Shown: positions 28,539 to 33,915 of the stretch, one piece after another | Position numbering within the stretch: the first letter of the stretch is position 1 | Layout: the number at the start of each line of letters is the position of its first letter | Assembly: GCA_003251535.1 (NCBI GenBank) | Contig: QKFD01000065.1 | Location: 1-33,915 of the forward strand | Direction of reading: 5' to 3' | DNA: 33,915 nt | Source: Chromatiales bacterium | Lineage (GTDB): Bacteria; Pseudomonadota; Gammaproteobacteria; Thiohalomonadales; Thiohalomonadaceae | Notes under the pieces: generated by a model | The model's input: the letters and a program-made list of their open reading frames with translations, nothing else | Databases searched by the model: none | Told to the model about the DNA's origin: nothing | Translations under genes and position numbers: made by a program

Positions 28539-29615
28539 TCAGTTCATCAACCCCACGCTCTTGATGCGGGCGAAGACCGCCCGCCCCGGCATCAGCCCCA
28601 GCTGCCGCACTGAACGCTCGGTGATGCGGGCGATCAGCGGTATCCCCTGGGGATCGGCCGCTGGCCGCAGCTGCACCAACACCCGCCCCGGTTCGGTGGC
28701 AGTGATGGACTCAATCACCGCCGGCCAGGCATTCAAGATGCTGCTCTGCCGCTCCGCCTCCAACGCCAGGCTCACATCCCGCGCCGGTAGACGTACCCGC
28801 ACCCGGTGCCCCGGCGCGTGGGCGATACGCTGCAACCAGATCTCCCCCCACGCGGTCTCCACCACCGTCAGGTGATCCGCCTCTTCGTGGCGCGCCACCA
28901 CCCCCTCCAGCACCGCCTCCGCCTCCCCTGCCCGCAGGGTGAGATCGACACGGGTAAGGAGATCCAGGGCCGGCCCTTCGGCCTTGAGCAGCCCCTTCTC
29001 CAGCCAGACGATGTGGTCCGCCAAGCGGGCCACCTCGGCGAGGGAGTGGCTGACGTAGAAGATGGGGATGGCCAGCTCGTCATGGAGCCGCTCCAGGTAG
29101 GGGAGGATCTCCGCCTTACTGCGCTCATCCAGGGCCGACAGCGGCTCATCCATCAGCAACAGCCGAGGACTGGTGAGCAGGGCACGGGCGATGGCCACCC
29201 GCTGCCGCTCCCCCCCGGAGAGGCCGGAGGGGGCACGGCTCAACAGCCGCTCGACCCCGAGTAGCGCCACCGCCTCATCGAAGGCAACCCGCCGCTCCGC
29301 CGCCGGCAGCCGCCGCCAGCCATATTCCAGATTGCGCCGCACCGAGAGGTGGGGAAAGAGGCTCGCCTCCTGAAACACATAACCGAGGGGGCGTCGGTGG
29401 ACCGGCATCGACCACCGCCCCTCCTGCCACACCTCGCCATTGACGACCAATCGCCCCTCCGCCTGTTGCAGGCCGGCGACACAGCGCAACAGGGTGGTCT
29501 TACCCGAACCAGAGTGGCCAAACAGGGCGGTGACCCCGCGGCTGGGGGCGACAAAGGCGGTGGTGAGCGCAAAGCCCCCCACCTGCGCCTTGAAACTGAC
29601 CTCGATCCCCGTCAT
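28539..29615 (-). CDS. modC: Molybdate ABC transporter ATPase ModC
   Basis: This encodes 358 residues. The ATPase core has Walker A GHSGSGKT (33-40), signature [15 protein letters not shown], Walker [13 protein letters not shown] and switch His in [10 protein letters not shown]. From about residue 215 the typical ModC regulatory tail follows, including a Mop/TOBE-like part ([20 protein letters not shown] and [19 protein letters not shown]), which in this family binds molybdate or oxyanions. ModC powers high-affinity uptake of molybdate through ModB. It is the last gene of the modABC set, its ATG overlapping the modB stop by 4 bases. Confidence 0.95.
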
Positions 29616-30286
29616 TGGCGCACCTCCAAACGGCGGTTGGTGAAGTGGAGGGTGAGCAGCACCAAAAACGAGAAACCGACCATCCCGGCGGCCAGGATGT
29701 GGGCCTGGTCATACTCCAACGACTCCACATAGTCATAGATGGCCACCGAGAGGACCTTGGTCTCACCTGGGATATTGCCGCCGATCATCAGCACCACGCC
29801 AAACTCCCCCACGGTGTGGGCAAACCCAAGGACCGTGGCGGTGAGGAAACCGGGCCGCGCCAACGGCACCGCCACGGTGAAAAAACGGTCTAGTGGTGAC
29901 GCACGCAGGGTAGCCGCCACCTCGATAGGGCGATCGCCCAGCGCCTCAAAGGCGTTTTGCAACGGCTGCACCACAAAGGGCATGGAGTAGAGCACCGAGG
30001 CCACCACCAATCCCCAAAAGGTAAATGGCAGCAGACCGAGGCCGAGGGCCTGAGTCATCTCTCCCACCACCCCTTTGGGTCCTAACAGCAGCAGCAGATA
30101 GAAACCGAGCACGGTGGGAGGCAGCACCAGAGGCAGCGCCACCACCGCCCCTACAGGCTGCTTCCAGAAGGAGCGGGTACGCGCCAACCACCAGGCGAAG
30201 GGGGTACCCACCAACAGTAGTAACAGCGTGGTTGTCCCTGCCAGCTGAAGCGTAAGCCACACCGGTTGCCAATCAAATTGAGCCAT
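29612..30286 (-). CDS. modB: Molybdate ABC transporter permease ModB
   Basis: This encodes 224 residues with five membrane helices. The cytoplasmic coupling motif typical of binding-protein-dependent permeases is visible as [20 protein letters not shown], followed by [20 protein letters not shown]. The length fits ModB. It pairs with ModC through a 4-base overlap. Unlike many mod operons it is separated from modA by about 300 noncoding bases with hairpins, and its ATG has no good ribosome-binding site, so its expression is likely lower than that of modA. Confidence 0.93.
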
Positions 30287-30587: not shown

Positions 30588-31343
30588 TTACTCCGTTCCG
30601 TAACCGTACTGCTCAATGACTGCCTTGGCCTCGGGACTCTGGAGAAACTCCAGGAACGCCTTGGCTGCCGCGCTCTCCTCGCCCTTCTTCAAGAGGGTCG
30701 CATCCTGCTTGATGGGGGCATACAGCTCCTGCGGGACGACCCAGACCGAACCGGCCTCTTCCGGCGCCAGCGCCTTCACCTGAGAGAGCGCCACAAAGCC
30801 GATCTCGGCATTGCCGGTGGAGACAAACTGAAAGGTCTGGGCGATGGAGTCCCCCTGCACCAAGCGCGGAGTTACGCTATCGGCCAGCTTCAGATTGGCG
30901 AGCACCTCCATGGCCGCCGCCCCATAGGGCGCGGTCTTGGGGTTGGCGATGGCAAGCTTGCTGAACTCACTCTTCAGCACCTCTCCCTCCCCATCCACCT
31001 TGGCGGGATCTGCGCTCCACAGCGCCAGCTTGCCCACCGCGTAGGTGAACGGCGTAGAGGCCATCCCGCTCTCAGCCAAGCGCTTCGGCCGGGCCGCATC
31101 AGCGGAGAGGAACACCTCGAACGGCGCGCCATTCTCGATCTGCGAGGTGAGCTTGCCGCTGGAACCAAAGCTGGCCACCAGGTCGTGACCAGTCTTCTCC
31201 TTGAAGATAGGGGTGAGCTTCTTGGTGACGTCAGTAAAGTTGGCAGCCACTGCCGCCTTGACCTCATCCGCCTGGGCGCCGCCTGCAACCAACCCCAAAA
31301 CCAGACCGATCGCTACCGCCACCTGCTTAAAAGAGTGCTTCAT
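30588..31343 (-). CDS. modA: Periplasmic molybdate-binding protein ModA
   Basis: This encodes 251 residues. A signal peptide (MKHSFKQVAVAIGLVLGLVA, cut near GGAQADE) directs it to the periplasm. The mature protein opens with the ModA hallmark VKAAVAANFTDVTKKLTPIF, continues with ASFGSSGKLTSQIENGAPFEVFLSAD and has ANPKTAPYGAAA, which match the binding-site segments that contact molybdate by Ser and backbone groups in this family. It delivers molybdate, and perhaps tungstate, to ModBC. The ATG has AGGAGA 7 bases upstream. A ModE-type operator (31371-31402) lies 28 bases upstream of the start, so it should be repressed when molybdate is plentiful. Confidence 0.95.
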   Translation of the reverse strand: MKHSFKQVAVAIGLVLGLVAGGAQADEVKAAVAANFTDVTKKLTPIFKEKTGHDLVASFGSSGKLTSQIENGAPFEVFLSADAARPKRLAESGMASTPFTYAVGKLALWSADPAKVDGEGEVLKSEFSKLAIANPKTAPYGAAAMEVLANLKLADSVTPRLVQGDSIAQTFQFVSTGNAEIGFVALSQVKALAPEEAGSVWVVPQELYAPIKQDATLLKKGEESAAAKAFLEFLQSPEAKAVIEQYGYGTE

Positions 31344-31370: not shown

Positions 31371-31402
31371 CTACCGTTATAGTGAAAATCCCATAACGGT
31401 AG
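31371..31402. promoter_or_regulatory. ModE operator upstream of modA
   Basis: A perfect 10-base inverted repeat, CTACCGTTAT (31371-31380) and ATAACGGTAG (31393-31402), flanks a 12-base spacer. Read as the ModE pattern, the core is CGTTATAG-N8-CCATAACG (31375-31398), very like the E. coli modA operator (CGTTATAT-N8-ACATAACG, as I recall it). It sits just upstream of the modA ribosome-binding site and after the terminator of mop. Confidence 0.85.
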
Positions 31403-31406
31403 ACAT

Positions 31407-31431
31407 AAAAAAAGAGGGGTTTTTAACCCTC
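31407..31431 (-). terminator. Intrinsic terminator of mop, overlapping its stop codon
   Basis: On the minus strand GAGGG-N8-CCCTC is followed at once by seven T residues. The stem includes the mop stop codon (31423-31425). The stem is short, but the T-tract is one of the very few in the window. It separates mop transcription from the ModE-controlled modA. Confidence 0.6.
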
Positions 31432-31848
31432 GATTGCCAAGATAATGCTGGAGGCCTTGACCAGACCGCACACCTCGCCACCCACGGCCAGCCCCAACTT
31501 GCGGATACTCTCGTTGGTGATAATGGAGGTGAGCTGGTTACCGCCGGGCAGCCCAATGATCACCTCACCGTTGACGGCCCCTTCAGTACACGCCACCACC
31601 TTGCCACAGAGACGGTTACGGGCCGAGGTCATGGCCCCTTCACCGGTCATCAGGATCACCGATGAGGCCTTGATAAGGGCCACCACCGGCTTACCGGGGG
31701 CCAACTCCAGATTGCGGGCGCTCTCGTTGGTGATGATCGCCACCAGGTGATCCCCAGAGCCGAGATCCACCTTCACCTCGGCGTTCACAGCGCCAAGATT
31801 GACGGCCTCCACACTCCCCTTGAACTGATTACGGGCGCTGGTCTTCAT
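31423..31848 (-). CDS. mop: Two-domain molbindin (Mop), TOBE protein
   Basis: This encodes 141 residues made of two tandem Mop/TOBE domains (1-69 and 73-141), each with SARNxxxGxV, GAVNxEVxxxL and IITNESxRxLxL followed by VxxLxKASSxIL. Molbindins form rings that bind several molybdate ions and serve as cytosolic molybdenum storage or buffers. The two domains are like the C-terminal half of ModE encoded next door, so both derive from the same module. GAGGAG precedes the ATG at a good distance. A perfect hairpin at 31881-31902 lies about 30 bases upstream in the leader. Confidence 0.92.
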   Translation of the reverse strand: MKTSARNQFKGSVEAVNLGAVNAEVKVDLGSGDHLVAIITNESARNLELAPGKPVVALIKASSVILMTGEGAMTSARNRLCGKVVACTEGAVNGEVIIGLPGGNQLTSIITNESIRKLGLAVGGEVCGLVKASSIILAIEG

Positions 31849-31880
31849 TGCTCACTCCTCGTGTTGGTTCATGAATCGAA

Positions 31881-31902
31881 GGGGGCGGAGAGAGCCGCCC
31901 CC
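31881..31902 (-). repeat. Leader hairpin upstream of mop
   Basis: GGGGGCGG-AGAGAG-CCGCCCCC is a perfect 8-bp stem with a 6-base loop, 33 bases before the mop start. It could terminate read-through from modE or act in the mop leader. Confidence 0.4.
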
Positions 31903-31942
31903 TGCCTTGGTCCCACTGAATCTACAGGTCAGCCCCTCGTCC

Positions 31943-31963
31943 GGGGGGGGGGTGGCAACCCCC
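31943..31963 (-). terminator. GC hairpin with a G10 tract after modE
   Basis: Ten G residues in a row (31943-31952) on the plus strand, partly pairing as GGGGG-TGGCAA-CCCCC (31948-31963), lie 7 bases past the modE stop. The stem is placed like a terminator, but no T-tract follows. The homopolymer could be length-variable or a sequencing weak spot. Confidence 0.4.
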
Positions 31964-31969
31964 AGCACC

Positions 31970-32791
31970 TCACACGCTGACTGCCAGGATCACATCGCTC
32001 GCCTTAATCAGGGCACAGGCGTAAGCCCCCTCTTTCAGGCCGAGATTATGGATACTCTCGTTGGTGATGATGGCCGTCACCCGCCGACCACCGGCCAGCT
32101 CGATCACCACCTCACCATTGACCGCCCCCTCCTGACAGCGCACCACAGTGCCACACAGCTTGTTGCGGGCACTGCTCTTCGCCCCATCCTCCTCCACCAG
32201 CAGGATCACGGAGGTCTCCTTGACCAGCGCGTGGACCGGATCGCCCTCCTTGAGCCGCAGCTGCTCAATACTCTCGTTACTGACGATGGAGACCAGCCGA
32301 TCCCCCCCGGACAGCTCAACCACCACCTCGGAGTTGACAGCGCCGGAGACCAGATAGAGCACCCGGCCTTGGAACTGGTTGCGTACGGACGCCTTAAAGG
32401 AGAGGCGGCGCATCAGGTCAAAAAAGCGGTCGAAATCACCGATGGCGGCCGAGAGTCCACCGAGGAAGCGGTCATACTCCCCCTGGATCACCCGGAACAG
32501 CTCGACAATACGACGGCCGTGGTCAGTGAGGCGGGTGCCTCCACCGTGGCGACCGCCGGTCTCGCGGATCACCAGTGGCTCATCCGCCAGGTTATTCATG
32601 GCGTCCACCGCCTCCCAGGCCGCCTTATAGCTCATGCCAATAGCGCGGGCAGCGGCGGAGATGGAGCCATGTTCGGCAATCTTCTCCAACAACTCGATCC
32701 GACCTCCGCCGAGGAAGCTCTCCTCCCCCTTCTCCAGCCAGAGTCTCCCGCCGACCCGGGTCTCCTTCGGTTGTGTCCGCACGCGTGCCAT
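31970..32791 (-). CDS. modE: Molybdate-responsive regulator ModE
   Basis: This encodes 273 residues, the full-length type. Residues 1-120 are the winged-helix DNA-binding part (FLGGGRIELLEKIAEHGSIS, then AAARAIGMSYKAAWEAVDAM, then ETGGRHGGGTRLTDHGRRIV), with the helix-turn-helix near 42-62. Two TOBE/Mop domains follow (about 131-200 and 205-271), which bind molybdate at the dimer interface. Molybdate-bound ModE represses mod uptake genes and can activate molybdoenzyme genes. The ATG has a GGAGGAG site. A ModE operator covers the promoter (32805-32828), which indicates autoregulation. Confidence 0.95.
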   Translation of the reverse strand: MARVRTQPKETRVGGRLWLEKGEESFLGGGRIELLEKIAEHGSISAAARAIGMSYKAAWEAVDAMNNLADEPLVIRETGGRHGGGTRLTDHGRRIVELFRVIQGEYDRFLGGLSAAIGDFDRFFDLMRRLSFKASVRNQFQGRVLYLVSGAVNSEVVVELSGGDRLVSIVSNESIEQLRLKEGDPVHALVKETSVILLVEEDGAKSSARNKLCGTVVRCQEGAVNGEVVIELAGGRRVTAIITNESIHNLGLKEGAYACALIKASDVILAVSV

Positions 32792-32804
32792 GGCTCCTCC
32801 GGTT

Positions 32805-32828
32805 CGTTATATCACAGCGTACATAGCG
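32805..32828. promoter_or_regulatory. ModE operator upstream of modE
   Basis: CGTTATAT-N8-ACATAGCG matches the ModE operator pattern with one changed base in the right arm. It begins 14 bases upstream of the modE start and overlaps the promoter elements, so binding should block transcription. Confidence 0.8.
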
Positions 32829-32836
32829 CCTGTCAA
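32806..32836 (-). promoter_or_regulatory. Candidate promoter of modE
   Basis: On the minus strand a perfect -35 TTGACA (plus 32831-32836) precedes GATATA at 17 bases or TATAAC (plus 32806-32811) at 19 bases. Both -10 candidates lie within the ModE operator. The untranslated leader would be very short, with the ribosome-binding site right at its beginning. Confidence 0.5.
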
Positions 32837-32914
32837 AAGTGGGGTGATCATTACATTTTCCTGCGTCGATTGCTGCCTTTTGGGCGCTTACGCCGCCCTT
32901 TAGGAGGGCGCCTG

Positions 32915-32941
32915 CCCCCGCAACGGAGGACGTTGCGGGGG
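32915..32941 (-). terminator. Strong hairpin after the globin gene
   Basis: CCCCCGCAACG and CGTTGCGGGGG form a perfect 11-bp stem with a 5-base loop, 10 bases beyond the globin stop. Smaller hairpins (for example GCCCT-TTAGG-AGGGC near 32896-32910) follow. It separates globin transcription from modE. Confidence 0.6.
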
Positions 32942-32950
32942 GTTATGCCT

Positions 32951-33565
32951 CTAGGTCAGCGGCTGGGCGTCGAAGAACTCGCGGACCGTATGAAATGGAT
33001 GCCGTCGGGGCTGGGAGCGCATGGTGCGCCGATTCACCATACGCAGCGAGAAGGGCTCCATCCAGTTCCAATACTCCTCCAGCACCGCACGCGGGAAACG
33101 CACCTCCGCCAAGGCCTGCTTCAACTCCTCAATCCAGACCTCCCGCGTCTCCTCATCAATGGTGAAGGGGAAGTGGCGCGTGCGCATACAGAGATTGCCC
33201 TGGGTCGAGGTGAAGCGATCCGGCCCGCCGCACGCCTCGATCACATAGTCGGCGATCTTCTCCACTGCGGCGGCAAACCGGGTGTCATCGGGATCGAACA
33301 GGGCCCCGATGGAGCTGGCCCGCATCCGCGTATGGTGAGACCGCACCGCCGCTCGCAACATCTCCTCACCCGCCAACTCAAATATCCGCTGCGACGGAAA
33401 CGGCACCGGCGGGAACTCAAAATCGATAGAAGAGGCGACCCAGCGCGGCTCTGCCACCACCGGCACCCGCTCCGCCCGCCGGCCGCACTGGCAACCGCCC
33501 TGATGGCCGTGGCCATGCTGTCCATGGCCCTGCTCTACACCACCGTGACCTTCACCTTTGCACAT
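32951..33565 (-). CDS. Truncated-hemoglobin-like globin with Cys/His-rich N-terminus
   Basis: This encodes 204 residues from an ATG with AGGAG 7 bases upstream. Residues 58-182 match small bacterial globins: FELAGEEMLRAAVRSHH, IADYVIEACGGPDRFTS, then MRTRHFPFTI with H131 as the likely proximal haem ligand, and YWNWMEPFSLRMVNRR at the end. Residues 1-28 are an extra Gly/His/Cys-rich segment (C2, C25, C27; H7, H14, H17, H19, H21), possibly a metal-binding tail. No signal peptide is present. Such globins bind O2 or NO and often serve in NO detoxification. The gene lies upstream of modE on the same strand, and a ModE-type operator lies upstream of it. Confidence 0.8.
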   Translation of the reverse strand: MCKGEGHGGVEQGHGQHGHGHQGGCQCGRRAERVPVVAEPRWVASSIDFEFPPVPFPSQRIFELAGEEMLRAAVRSHHTRMRASSIGALFDPDDTRFAAAVEKIADYVIEACGGPDRFTSTQGNLCMRTRHFPFTIDEETREVWIEELKQALAEVRFPRAVLEEYWNWMEPFSLRMVNRRTMRSQPRRHPFHTVREFFDAQPLT

Positions 33566-33690
33566 CGCCCAGCTCCTACATTCGCGCCCACCCCCACGGC
33601 GGCGCCCAGATTCGACATAGCAAGAGATGGGCCAGCACCCAATTCGCCCTCAAGCCACTGTTTTTCGTGTGGTAACTCCGTTTCCAGTGG

Positions 33691-33696
33691 ATTTTA
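33691..33696 (-). promoter_or_regulatory. Candidate -10 element of the globin gene
   Basis: TAAAAT on the minus strand lies about 125 bases before the globin start. The ModE-type box begins 8 bases upstream of it, so it would cover the spacer and -35 region. The -35 itself is weak. Confidence 0.35.
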
Positions 33697-33704
33697 AGGG
33701 GCTT

Positions 33705-33728
33705 CGTTGTATCGAATACGACATAACG
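33705..33728. promoter_or_regulatory. ModE-type operator upstream of the globin gene
   Basis: CGTTGTAT-N8-ACATAACG differs from the E. coli-like pattern at one base in the left arm, and its right arm is an exact match. The spacing of 8-8-8 equals that of the boxes upstream of modA and modE. It lies 140 bases upstream of the globin start. It could alternatively serve a gene beyond the right end of the window. Confidence 0.7.
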
Positions 33729-33807
33729 GGTGTCGCATTTGGGCCGCCCTCCCAGATAGGTGGAGACACCACCTGCAAGAACGGACCCAATCATGATCTG
33801 ACCCCAA

Positions 33808-33915
33808 CCCTGAGAAGTGGGTGTCCTGAGAAGTGGGTGTCCTGAGAAGTGGGTGTCCTGAGAAGTGGGTGTCCTGAGAAGTGGGTGTCCTGAGAAGTGG
33901 GTGTCCTGAGAAGTG
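33808..33915. repeat. Tandem repeat of a 16-bp unit running into the window end
   Basis: The unit TCCTGAGAAGTGGGTG occurs six times (33808-33903; the first copy starts with C instead of T) plus 12 bases of a seventh. Copies 2-6 are identical. There are no spacers, so it is not a CRISPR array. The array is cut by the window end, so its true length is unknown. The flank GGGGTCAGATCATGATT (minus strand, 33789-33805) is reminiscent of sequences next to REP-associated transposases, a weak impression only. Confidence 0.9.

Follow-up and report, generated by a model that had tools for sequence, protein, structure and literature searches.

A truncated globin of the Hell's Gate globin IV (HGbIV) type, encoded on a 33,915-nucleotide contig of a Chromatiales bacterium (the window analysed here), probably belongs to the ModE regulon of its host, the box upstream of its gene being a genuine ModE operator and the protein an HGbIV-type accessory of TonB-dependent molybdenum acquisition. 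Control of the globin by molybdate and ModE had been suggested in a first-pass annotation of this DNA. As far as sequence comparison goes, such control is likely because of the box statistics and the molybdenum-linked neighbourhoods in all five genomes that carry the family, four of them other than this one, and the further boxed genes of this genome support it as well.

ModE Boxes and mod Genes of the Window

The 8-8-8 layout of Escherichia coli ModE sites recurs at three places in the window (Table 1), with mismatches counted over the 16 positions of the consensus CGTTATAT-N8-ATATAACG. These boxes, upstream of modA, modE and the globin gene, are those that the first-pass annotation had described; they carry three, two and two mismatches, respectively, and are exactly the matches that the window holds at up to three mismatches, a threshold at which 100 dinucleotide shuffles of the window gave none. 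The globin box is an inverted repeat of two CGTTATRT-like arms with 8 bp between them and is similar in quality to the modE box. The ModE repressor domain scores above its cut-off, so that the genome has both the boxes and a ModE protein. On the minus strand the gap between box and start codon is 31 bp for modA, 13 bp for modE and 139 bp for the globin, whose box is thus more distant from its gene than the other two. A scan of 32750-33915 for a sigma-70-like promoter gave none.

TABLE 1. Position and basis of assignment of the features discussed in the text.
Feature	Coordinates	Strand	Basis
modC-like ATPase with TOBE domain	28539-29615	-	ABC_tran + TOBE
modB-like permease	29612-30286	-	BPD_transp_1; modB name from gene order
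modA-like molybdate-binding protein	30588-31343	-	SBP_bac_11; modA name from gene order
ModE box 1 (predicted operator), upstream of modA	31375-31398	.	Pattern scan: CGTTATAG-N8-CCATAACG, 3 mismatches
Mop-type protein, two TOBE domains	31423-31848	-	Domain matches
modE: ModE repressor domain and two TOBE (molybdate-binding) domains	31970-32791	-	TIGR00637 100.8 bits, cut-off 98.5
ModE box 2 (predicted operator), upstream of modE	32805-32828	.	CGTTATAT-N8-ACATAGCG, 2 mismatches
HGbIV-type truncated globin, 204 aa, His/Cys-rich N-terminus	32951-33565	-	Pfam Bac_globin
His131 codon, presumed proximal haem ligand (F8)	33173-33175	-	Invariant in 6/6 family members
His77-His78 codons, aligned with HGbIV His70(B9)-His71(B10)	33332-33337	-	Sequence alignment
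ModE box 3 (predicted operator), upstream of the globin	33705-33728	.	CGTTGTAT-N8-ACATAACG, 2 mismatches
16-bp tandem repeat, 6.7 copies, at the contig end; outside the system	33809-33915	+	

In the whole genome (4.63 Mb) 11 sites match the box at up to three mismatches, compared with one for a reversed control pattern. A half-site matrix was built from 13 sites (nine of this genome, four of other genomes), with the globin box and the site at C66:49126 held out; the held-out globin box scores 24.0, the 13 sites score 21.0-29.9 when each is left out in turn, and since matrix sites and scored boxes were all found first with the same pattern, the matrix offers only limited independence as a test. 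A simulated sequence (n = 1, 4.6 Mb, 63% GC) contains no site scoring 18 or more on this matrix. A chance match at the globin was rejected on the basis of the shuffles, the reversed control pattern and the half-site matrix. In other genomes the ratio of box to control sites is 4:0 (G763), 2:1 (G764), 2:0 (G164), 6:8 (G210) and 1:6 (G242), so that in G210 and G242 the pattern has no discriminating power. G763 and G764 each have a full box at modE, and G164 has one at modA. The context of the relatives' sites was checked for all but L055 and L065-L069: sites L060 and L061 fall within one conserved coding gene common to G763 and G764, and no molybdenum gene was recognised near L062 and L063.

The boxed loci of this genome beyond the globin are modA, modE, moeA, a MolABC-like/TonB-receptor operon, a second TonB receptor and another ABC cluster. 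The MolABC-like operon (C66) has the order SBP-permease-ATPase-TonB receptor and is followed by NifA-like, TOBE and NifQ genes, while the second boxed TonB receptor is accompanied by SBP, di-haem and ExbB genes. The closest solved relative of the C66 permease is HI1471 (MolB; E 4.1e-57), with FhuB and the haem and BtuC permeases ranking behind it; the profile of the SBP finds HI_1472 (MolA; E 1e-22), its top match being 4pag, of unnamed function (E 1.1e-95). From the ModE boxes and the downstream TOBE and NifQ genes we infer that this importer carries molybdate. Alternatively, the transporter set could serve iron or haem, or iron and molybdenum jointly, with the globin handling iron or haem, as the sub-cut-off scores of the TonB receptors and the ATPase on siderophore, haem and B12 families might suggest, and as would fit the reading of an Acidithiobacillus ferrooxidans cluster as bifunctional for Fe and Mo, with a Fur box given in a figure legend (PMC2631029). 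However, the ModE boxes, the ModD, Mop/TOBE and NifQ neighbours and the ranking of the permease make this quite unlikely.

An HGbIV-Type Globin

The globin ORF matches Pfam Bac_globin with 53.3 bits (cut-off 21). Its nearest solved relative by sequence is HGbIV (4nk1/4nk2; E 8.6e-58 with a profile of three sequences), which reaches 198.6 bits versus 47.8 for the next solved globin, and HGbIV is also the best match of a fold search with the globin model (Z 19.8, next 12.2), the structural alignment giving 46% identity. By these comparisons the protein is an HGbIV-type truncated globin. With the B9-B10 register read by eye in the alignment, His-His occupies these positions in 6/6 members of the HGbIV-type family and Phe-Tyr in 18/18 other globin matches, which comprise five weaker class matches (50.4-59 bits) and 13 from outside this genome and were excluded from the family. 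Tyr at B10 is typical of group II truncated haemoglobins, and an ordinary member of that group was rejected because B10 is His. His131 is presumed to be the proximal haem ligand on the basis of alignment with other truncated globins; the structure model has low confidence over residues 117-131, which include it. In the crystal of HGbIV, for which haem binding is likewise reported, the His pair, His70(B9)-His71(B10) in the published numbering, was described to bind phosphate in the distal site (PMC4476040; title of 4nk1). A literature search found no report of HGbIV function or regulation in the text available.

Molybdenum-Linked Neighbourhoods

The family has six members in five genomes, in all of which the globin either adjoins molybdenum genes or sits within the homologous transporter operon. 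In a Thiobacillus MAG a single 9-kb contig carries a box, modE, modA and modD, followed by SBP-globin-permease, and the gene order in Parasulfuritortus is SBP-globin-permease-ATPase. The globin cluster of G801 contains eight genes homologous to the boxed C57, C66 and C52 loci of this genome (45-82% identity), so that homologues of three separately boxed loci are gathered in one globin-bearing cluster. In G164 a tandem pair of globin genes is surrounded by TonB receptors and SBPs and adjoins modD and a Mop protein gene. The SBP-type transporter also occurs without a family globin (G210, G242), and the globin is therefore dispensable for it. A search of the phylum (398 genomes) returned no family globin at E<=1e-18 besides the window's own copy, and a search across the order of G164 returned none outside G164. 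Plasmid-borne relatives are represented by four weak matches with 25-33% identity.

Globin homologues were scanned for an upstream box, the check proposed in the first-pass annotation. In three Thiobacillaceae (G763, G764 and G801) the SBP-globin operons, scanned at spacings 7-9 (L035, L036) or at spacing 8 only (L083, L084; up to four mismatches), lack a full box upstream; these orthologous operons have only two conserved half-boxes there, 42 bp apart, and the box of the Thiobacillus MAG lies on the same contig as its globin. In the 16.5-kb globin locus of G164 there is no box at up to four mismatches; a spacing-7 variant (score 16.7) precedes a TonB receptor of this locus, and a boxed modA lies ~16 kb away. 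None of the 18 Phe-Tyr globins has a box at up to three mismatches within its 1.8- to 3.5-kb locus.

It is conceivable that the third box serves a divergent molybdenum gene past the contig edge, with the globin as a bystander. The window is the entire contig and stops 187 bp past the box, within the tandem repeat, so that such a gene would be invisible, and the 139-bp gap to the globin would fit this arrangement too. Nevertheless, the homologous globin is found in a homologous uptake operon or molybdenum cluster in 4/4 other carriers, so that its membership does not depend on the box alone. Furthermore, the modE box lies 130 bp (G763) and 132 bp (G764) from its ORF, and the globin's gap is therefore not unusual. 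We regard the bystander arrangement as very unlikely.

Possible Roles of the Globin

In the proposed mechanism, the regulon of the nifH-bearing host would comprise the globin, modE, modABC, moeA, the MolABC-like importer with its TonB receptor and the second TonB receptor. ModE binding, the sign of regulation, the location in the cell and the biochemical step are all what we infer from gene and protein sequences. The globin would most likely be made under molybdenum shortage, with ModE-molybdate acting as a repressor as at modA. It most likely serves TonB-dependent molybdenum acquisition, and would most likely act intracellularly on freshly imported molybdenum. Two chemistries are candidates: the polar His-His distal pocket may hold molybdate, or the haem may be needed for freeing molybdenum from an imported chelate. 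We know of no globin for which molybdate is a ligand; the binding of phosphate by the His pair of HGbIV makes molybdate a possible, if speculative, ligand. More generally, HGbIV-type globins might be molybdate-binding haem proteins whose family-specific His(B9)-His(B10) pair, placed above the haem, is suited to molybdate as a tetrahedral oxyanion; under ModE control they could carry or buffer molybdate inside the cell, or act there as its redox-gated sensor, a proposal that we put forward tentatively and consider doubtful.

The globin could also be an oxygen sensor or scavenger that guards nitrogenase or times its metal supply, a role in oxygen sensing having been proposed for gloA of A. ferrooxidans (PMC2631029). 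In agreement with this, the host, G763 and G764 each have an nifH match that exceeds the cut-off (G801 being outside the search), and NifA-like and NifQ genes come after the boxed operon. However, G164, listed as 98% complete, has two tandem globins in a molybdenum cluster while its best nifH match reaches 38.3 bits, below the cut-off, and B10, usually Tyr, is His in 6/6 family members. Such a role therefore appears unlikely.

The first-pass annotation had offered the logic that molybdenum-dependent nitrate reduction yields NO, which the globin would detoxify. NO dioxygenase activity occurs in other truncated globins, and NapA scores above its cut-off in three of the five carriers, namely the three Thiobacillaceae. 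By contrast, NarG is above its cut-off in none of six genomes, four of which carry the globin, neither this genome nor G164 has a NapA match that exceeds the cut-off, and the recognised neighbours are metal-uptake genes, concerned with molybdenum uptake and trafficking. This logic thus found no support, and we consider it highly improbable. Nitrate may still be used by this genome, where weaker NapA-like matches fall under the cut-off (best 140.6 bits); the search covered NarG and NapA.

If the globin serves molybdenum acquisition under ModE, a structurally solved globin family without an assigned function is tied to a specific metal and regulator, and the ModE-controlled genes would gain a haem protein and TonB receptors. 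The use of a globin pocket for an oxyanion becomes directly testable, and the oxygen-sensing proposal for gloA is now one among several testable options. Molybdenum supply can limit nitrogen fixation, which is why molybdenum scavenging by such bacteria matters.

Comparison With Known Systems

Like E. coli ModE, the window ModE combines a repressor domain with two TOBE domains, and boxes are found at the mod genes; it differs in scoring under the E. coli-type equivalog cut-off (164.4 versus 369 bits). To our knowledge, the E. coli ModE regulon includes no globin, MolABC-like importer or TonB receptors. The permease and SBP of the boxed C66 operon are related to those of Haemophilus influenzae HI1470-HI1472 (MolABC), but here the importer has TonB receptors and a globin linked to it. 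With HGbIV of Methylacidiphilum infernorum the window globin has in common the His-His pair at B9-B10 and extensions at both ends, and differs from it in the His/Cys-rich N-terminus. Cyanoglobin GlbN of Nostoc commune, a group I globin encoded in a nif cluster, is another truncated globin with a connection to nitrogen fixation; we are aware of no link of GlbN to molybdenum uptake or ModE.

The first-pass annotation knew of no such link between a globin and ModE as standard ModE biology. This is fair, and the available text of PMC2474590 contains neither "globin" nor "hemoglobin", nor does that of PMC3770913 link globins to molybdate; but as early as 2008 a globin gene had been described within an Fe-Mo transport cluster, namely the truncated-globin gene gloA in a 13-gene cluster of A. 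ferrooxidans (PMC2631029). That cluster encodes two TonB receptors, a TonB system and ABC transporters with three binding proteins, and adjoins nif genes (PMC2631029). The account of gloA in section 10 of that paper concerns oxygen sensing and a Fur box and leaves ModE unmentioned (PMC2631029). Compared by description, gloA shares with the system reported here a truncated globin in a context of TonB and ABC transport.

Predicted ModE sites of the window genome

The three candidate ModE boxes lie where the first-pass annotation had located them, and a search of the window with the pattern CGTTATAT-N8-ATATAACG, allowing up to 3 mismatches, returns precisely these 3, with none in 100 dinucleotide shuffles. 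Throughout the window genome (4.63 Mb, 130 contigs) the pattern has 11 sites, against 1 for the control, the same pattern reversed. A half-site matrix was built on 13 sites, 9 from the window genome and 4 from four others, leaving out the globin box; this box scores 24.0, compared with 21.0-29.9 for the training sites in leave-one-out scoring, the sites having originally been picked by the same pattern, so that the matrix is not a fully independent test. One simulated 4.6-Mb sequence (63% GC) held no site scoring 18 or more with this matrix. In other genomes the pattern and its reversed control gave 4 and 0 sites (Parasulfuritortus), 2 and 1 (a Thiobacillus MAG) and 2 and 0 (G164, a member of the class), and the control outnumbered the pattern in the class genomes G210 (6 vs 8) and G242 (1 vs 6). 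The globin box lies 139 bp from its gene, farther than the modA and modE boxes of the window from theirs and comparable with the 130 and 132 bp ahead of the modE ORF in Parasulfuritortus and the Thiobacillus MAG; a search near it for a sigma-70-like promoter found none. The contig stops 187 bp past this box, inside a tandem repeat. Related but different short-unit repeats, each beside a TCTGACCCCAA-like motif, are found at a number of sites in the window genome (among them loci L002, L003 and L004), mostly at contig ends.

Beyond the window, boxes precede moeA, two TonB/transport operons and a further gene run. The operon on contig C66 has NifA-like (467 bits; the cut-off for NifA is 529), TOBE and NifQ genes downstream in the same orientation. 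Its permease has HI1471 as nearest solved protein (E 4.1e-57), and its substrate-binding protein (SBP) profile reaches HI_1472 at 1e-22, ranked after two unnamed binding proteins; we take these two to be MolB and MolA of the molybdate/tungstate importer of H. influenzae. Since moeA as well as NifQ/TOBE-linked and MolABC-related loci carry boxes, the boxed set reads, from sequence, as a molybdenum regulon, and its owner as a probable nitrogen fixer because nifH is found over cut-off. One nifH match is split across two adjoining frames, and partial ones lie on contigs C42 and C10. The boxes of the C52 and C66 operons are spaced similarly from the presumed start codon. The weakest box (score 18.9) sits at the start of the SBP/CobW/ABC gene run of C66, a cluster in which no molybdenum marker was found.

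Positions of predicted boxes and associated features (C, contig; L, fetched locus)
Feature	Position	Strand	Detail
modA box	C57 (window) 31375-31398		one box
modE box	C57 32805-32828		one box
Globin box	C57 33705-33728		one box
Truncated globin ORF	C57 32951-33565	minus	
Tandem repeat	C57 33793-33915		
moeA	C23		one box; MoeA 581 bits, cut-off 440
SBP-permease-ATPase-TonB receptor operon	C66; boxes within L032 7124-7344		three boxes, 15, 81 and 212 bp from presumed start (taken as L032 7108)
Second TonB receptor, then SBP, di-haem oxidoreductase, ExbB-type gene	C52; boxes within L031 7012-7244		three boxes, 24, 83 and 233 bp from presumed start (L031 7269)
SBP_bac_6, CobW-type, ABC ATPase, GCS2-like run	C66:49126; L033 6127-10704		one box, 3 mismatches
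Split nifH match	C85:207529-208354		
CTACATAACG half-boxes, Thiobacillaceae	L035 4636 and 4678; L083 6924 and 6966; L084 2197 and 2239		
Box-like site, Parasulfuritortus (G763, C12)	L064 1501-1524		3 mismatches
Luciferase-like (LLM) monooxygenase gene, G210	C11; L053 9178-10191		

Occurrence and neighbourhoods of the globin

The globin family is rare in the genomes searched. Matches better than E 1e-20 occur in 2 of 369 genomes of the class (the window genome and G164), the phylum search returned only the window's own copy (1/398), and in the Parasulfuritortus family 3 of 117 genomes carry the globin; two of these also yielded one locus each in a genome-contig scan. The total is 5 genomes and 6 genes. 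Five further class genomes (E 1e-12 to 1e-15) were rejected as members, their globins carrying Phe-Tyr. A related SBP (E<=1e-60) is found in four of the 369 class genomes, namely both globin carriers and the globin-less G210 and G242.

In the window, modE, Mop and modABC lie directly downstream of the globin. A single 9-kb contig of the Thiobacillus MAG holds a box (1 mismatch), modE, modA, modD, a phosphoesterase, SBP, globin and permease, the last interrupted by the contig end; the stretch separating modA from modD is the expected place of modB-modC. Parasulfuritortus has SBP-globin-permease-ATPase with a TonB receptor farther along; a separate contig carries modE, preceded by a box, and a modA-like gene, with a nifH at a distance of ~7 kb. 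By eye, the box-like L064 site of this genome is flanked by the 3' end of a short ModE-like gene, which seems to comprise the DNA-binding part only, and by a permease-like gene downstream on the same strand. In G801, the third Thiobacillaceae genome, SBP-globin-permease-ATPase is accompanied by genes that, by eye, resemble TonB and ExbB; a pair of TonB receptors, another SBP and a di-haem protein belong to the cluster as well. Eight proteins of this cluster match boxed loci of the window genome: C66 (SBP 74%, permease 82%, ATPase 68%, receptor 51% identity), C52 (receptor 48%, SBP 45%, di-haem protein 52%) and the C57 globin (58%). The genes are probably orthologous, and homologues from three separately boxed loci thus form one cluster in G801, globin included. 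In G164 two globin genes stand in tandem. Ahead of them are three TonB-receptor-like and three SBP-like genes, of which two each rest on homology searches and the others on reading by eye; modD and a Mop protein are adjacent, and the same contig carries, ~16 kb off, a boxed modA and modB (by eye). No nifH over cut-off was found in G164, which links the globin to molybdenum rather than to nitrogenase alone.

None of the three Thiobacillaceae SBP-globin operons is preceded by a full box. Instead, all three have two copies of CTACATAACG, 42 bp apart in a conserved upstream stretch, which match the right half of the ModE box and are candidate sites. Downstream of them lies an inverted repeat of the TATATGT-N9 type with CTACATATA; its conservation is poorer in G801. 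The G164 globin locus holds no box at up to 4 mismatches; a spacing-7 variant ahead of one TonB receptor there scores 16.7. The proposal of the first-pass annotation that the third box places the globin under molybdate-ModE control is likely right, judging from the box statistics, the boxed gene set and the molybdenum-linked neighbourhoods, and is weakened by the missing full box at homologous operons; we regard membership of the ModE regulon as quite probable.

The globin protein and its possible role

Among solved structures, Hell's Gate globin IV (HGbIV) of Methylacidiphilum infernorum comes closest, both by sequence (198.6 bits with a three-sequence profile, the runner-up reaching 47.8) and by fold (Z 19.8 vs 12.2 for the next protein; predicted model of mean pLDDT 74, with residues 1-35 and 117-131 unreliable). 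His77-His78 aligns onto the distal pair His70(B9)-His71(B10) of HGbIV and is invariant in 6/6 family members, while Phe-Tyr occupies these positions, in a register read by eye, in 18/18 other globin loci (13 and 5 non-family loci brought in by two homology searches). No box at up to 3 mismatches was found in the 1.8- to 3.5-kb loci of these 18.

ModE-molybdate would bind the globin box, and the globin would probably be made alongside the uptake genes; molybdenum shortage is the simplest condition for this, activation being possible too. Inside the cell, it would act on incoming molybdenum. Haem chemistry might free the metal from an imported chelate, a rather unlikely role hinted at by G210, whose transporter is of the same kind, with a box (1 mismatch) ahead of its TonB receptor, and whose monooxygenase gene, between SBP and permease, occupies the operon slot held by the globin in Thiobacillaceae. 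That an oxyanion-binding His-His pocket holds molybdate is rather unlikely; HGbIV is reported to carry phosphate in its distal site (PMC4476040), and its entry 4nk1 is titled 'phosphate-bound'. The logic first suggested, that the globin handles NO from molybdenum-dependent nitrate reduction, finds no support, as NarG is over cut-off in 0/6 genomes and NapA in 3/5 carriers, neither the window genome nor G164 among them.

Comparison with known systems

In the literature searched, most subscription papers lying outside its reach, neither ModE control of a globin nor any tie between molybdenum and the HGbIV His-His family was found. At the gene level the link between a globin and molybdenum transport is not new, since a 2008 report describes gloA of Acidithiobacillus ferrooxidans, a truncated-globin gene in a 13-gene cluster beside nif genes; the cluster also includes two TonB receptors, a TonB system and ABC transporters whose predicted substrates are Fe-siderophores and molybdate (PMC2631029). 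Its authors proposed oxygen sensing for gloA (PMC2631029), a function that we consider rather unlikely for the present globin. The combination of a known globin type with a known regulator provides a testable role for a globin family without assigned function.
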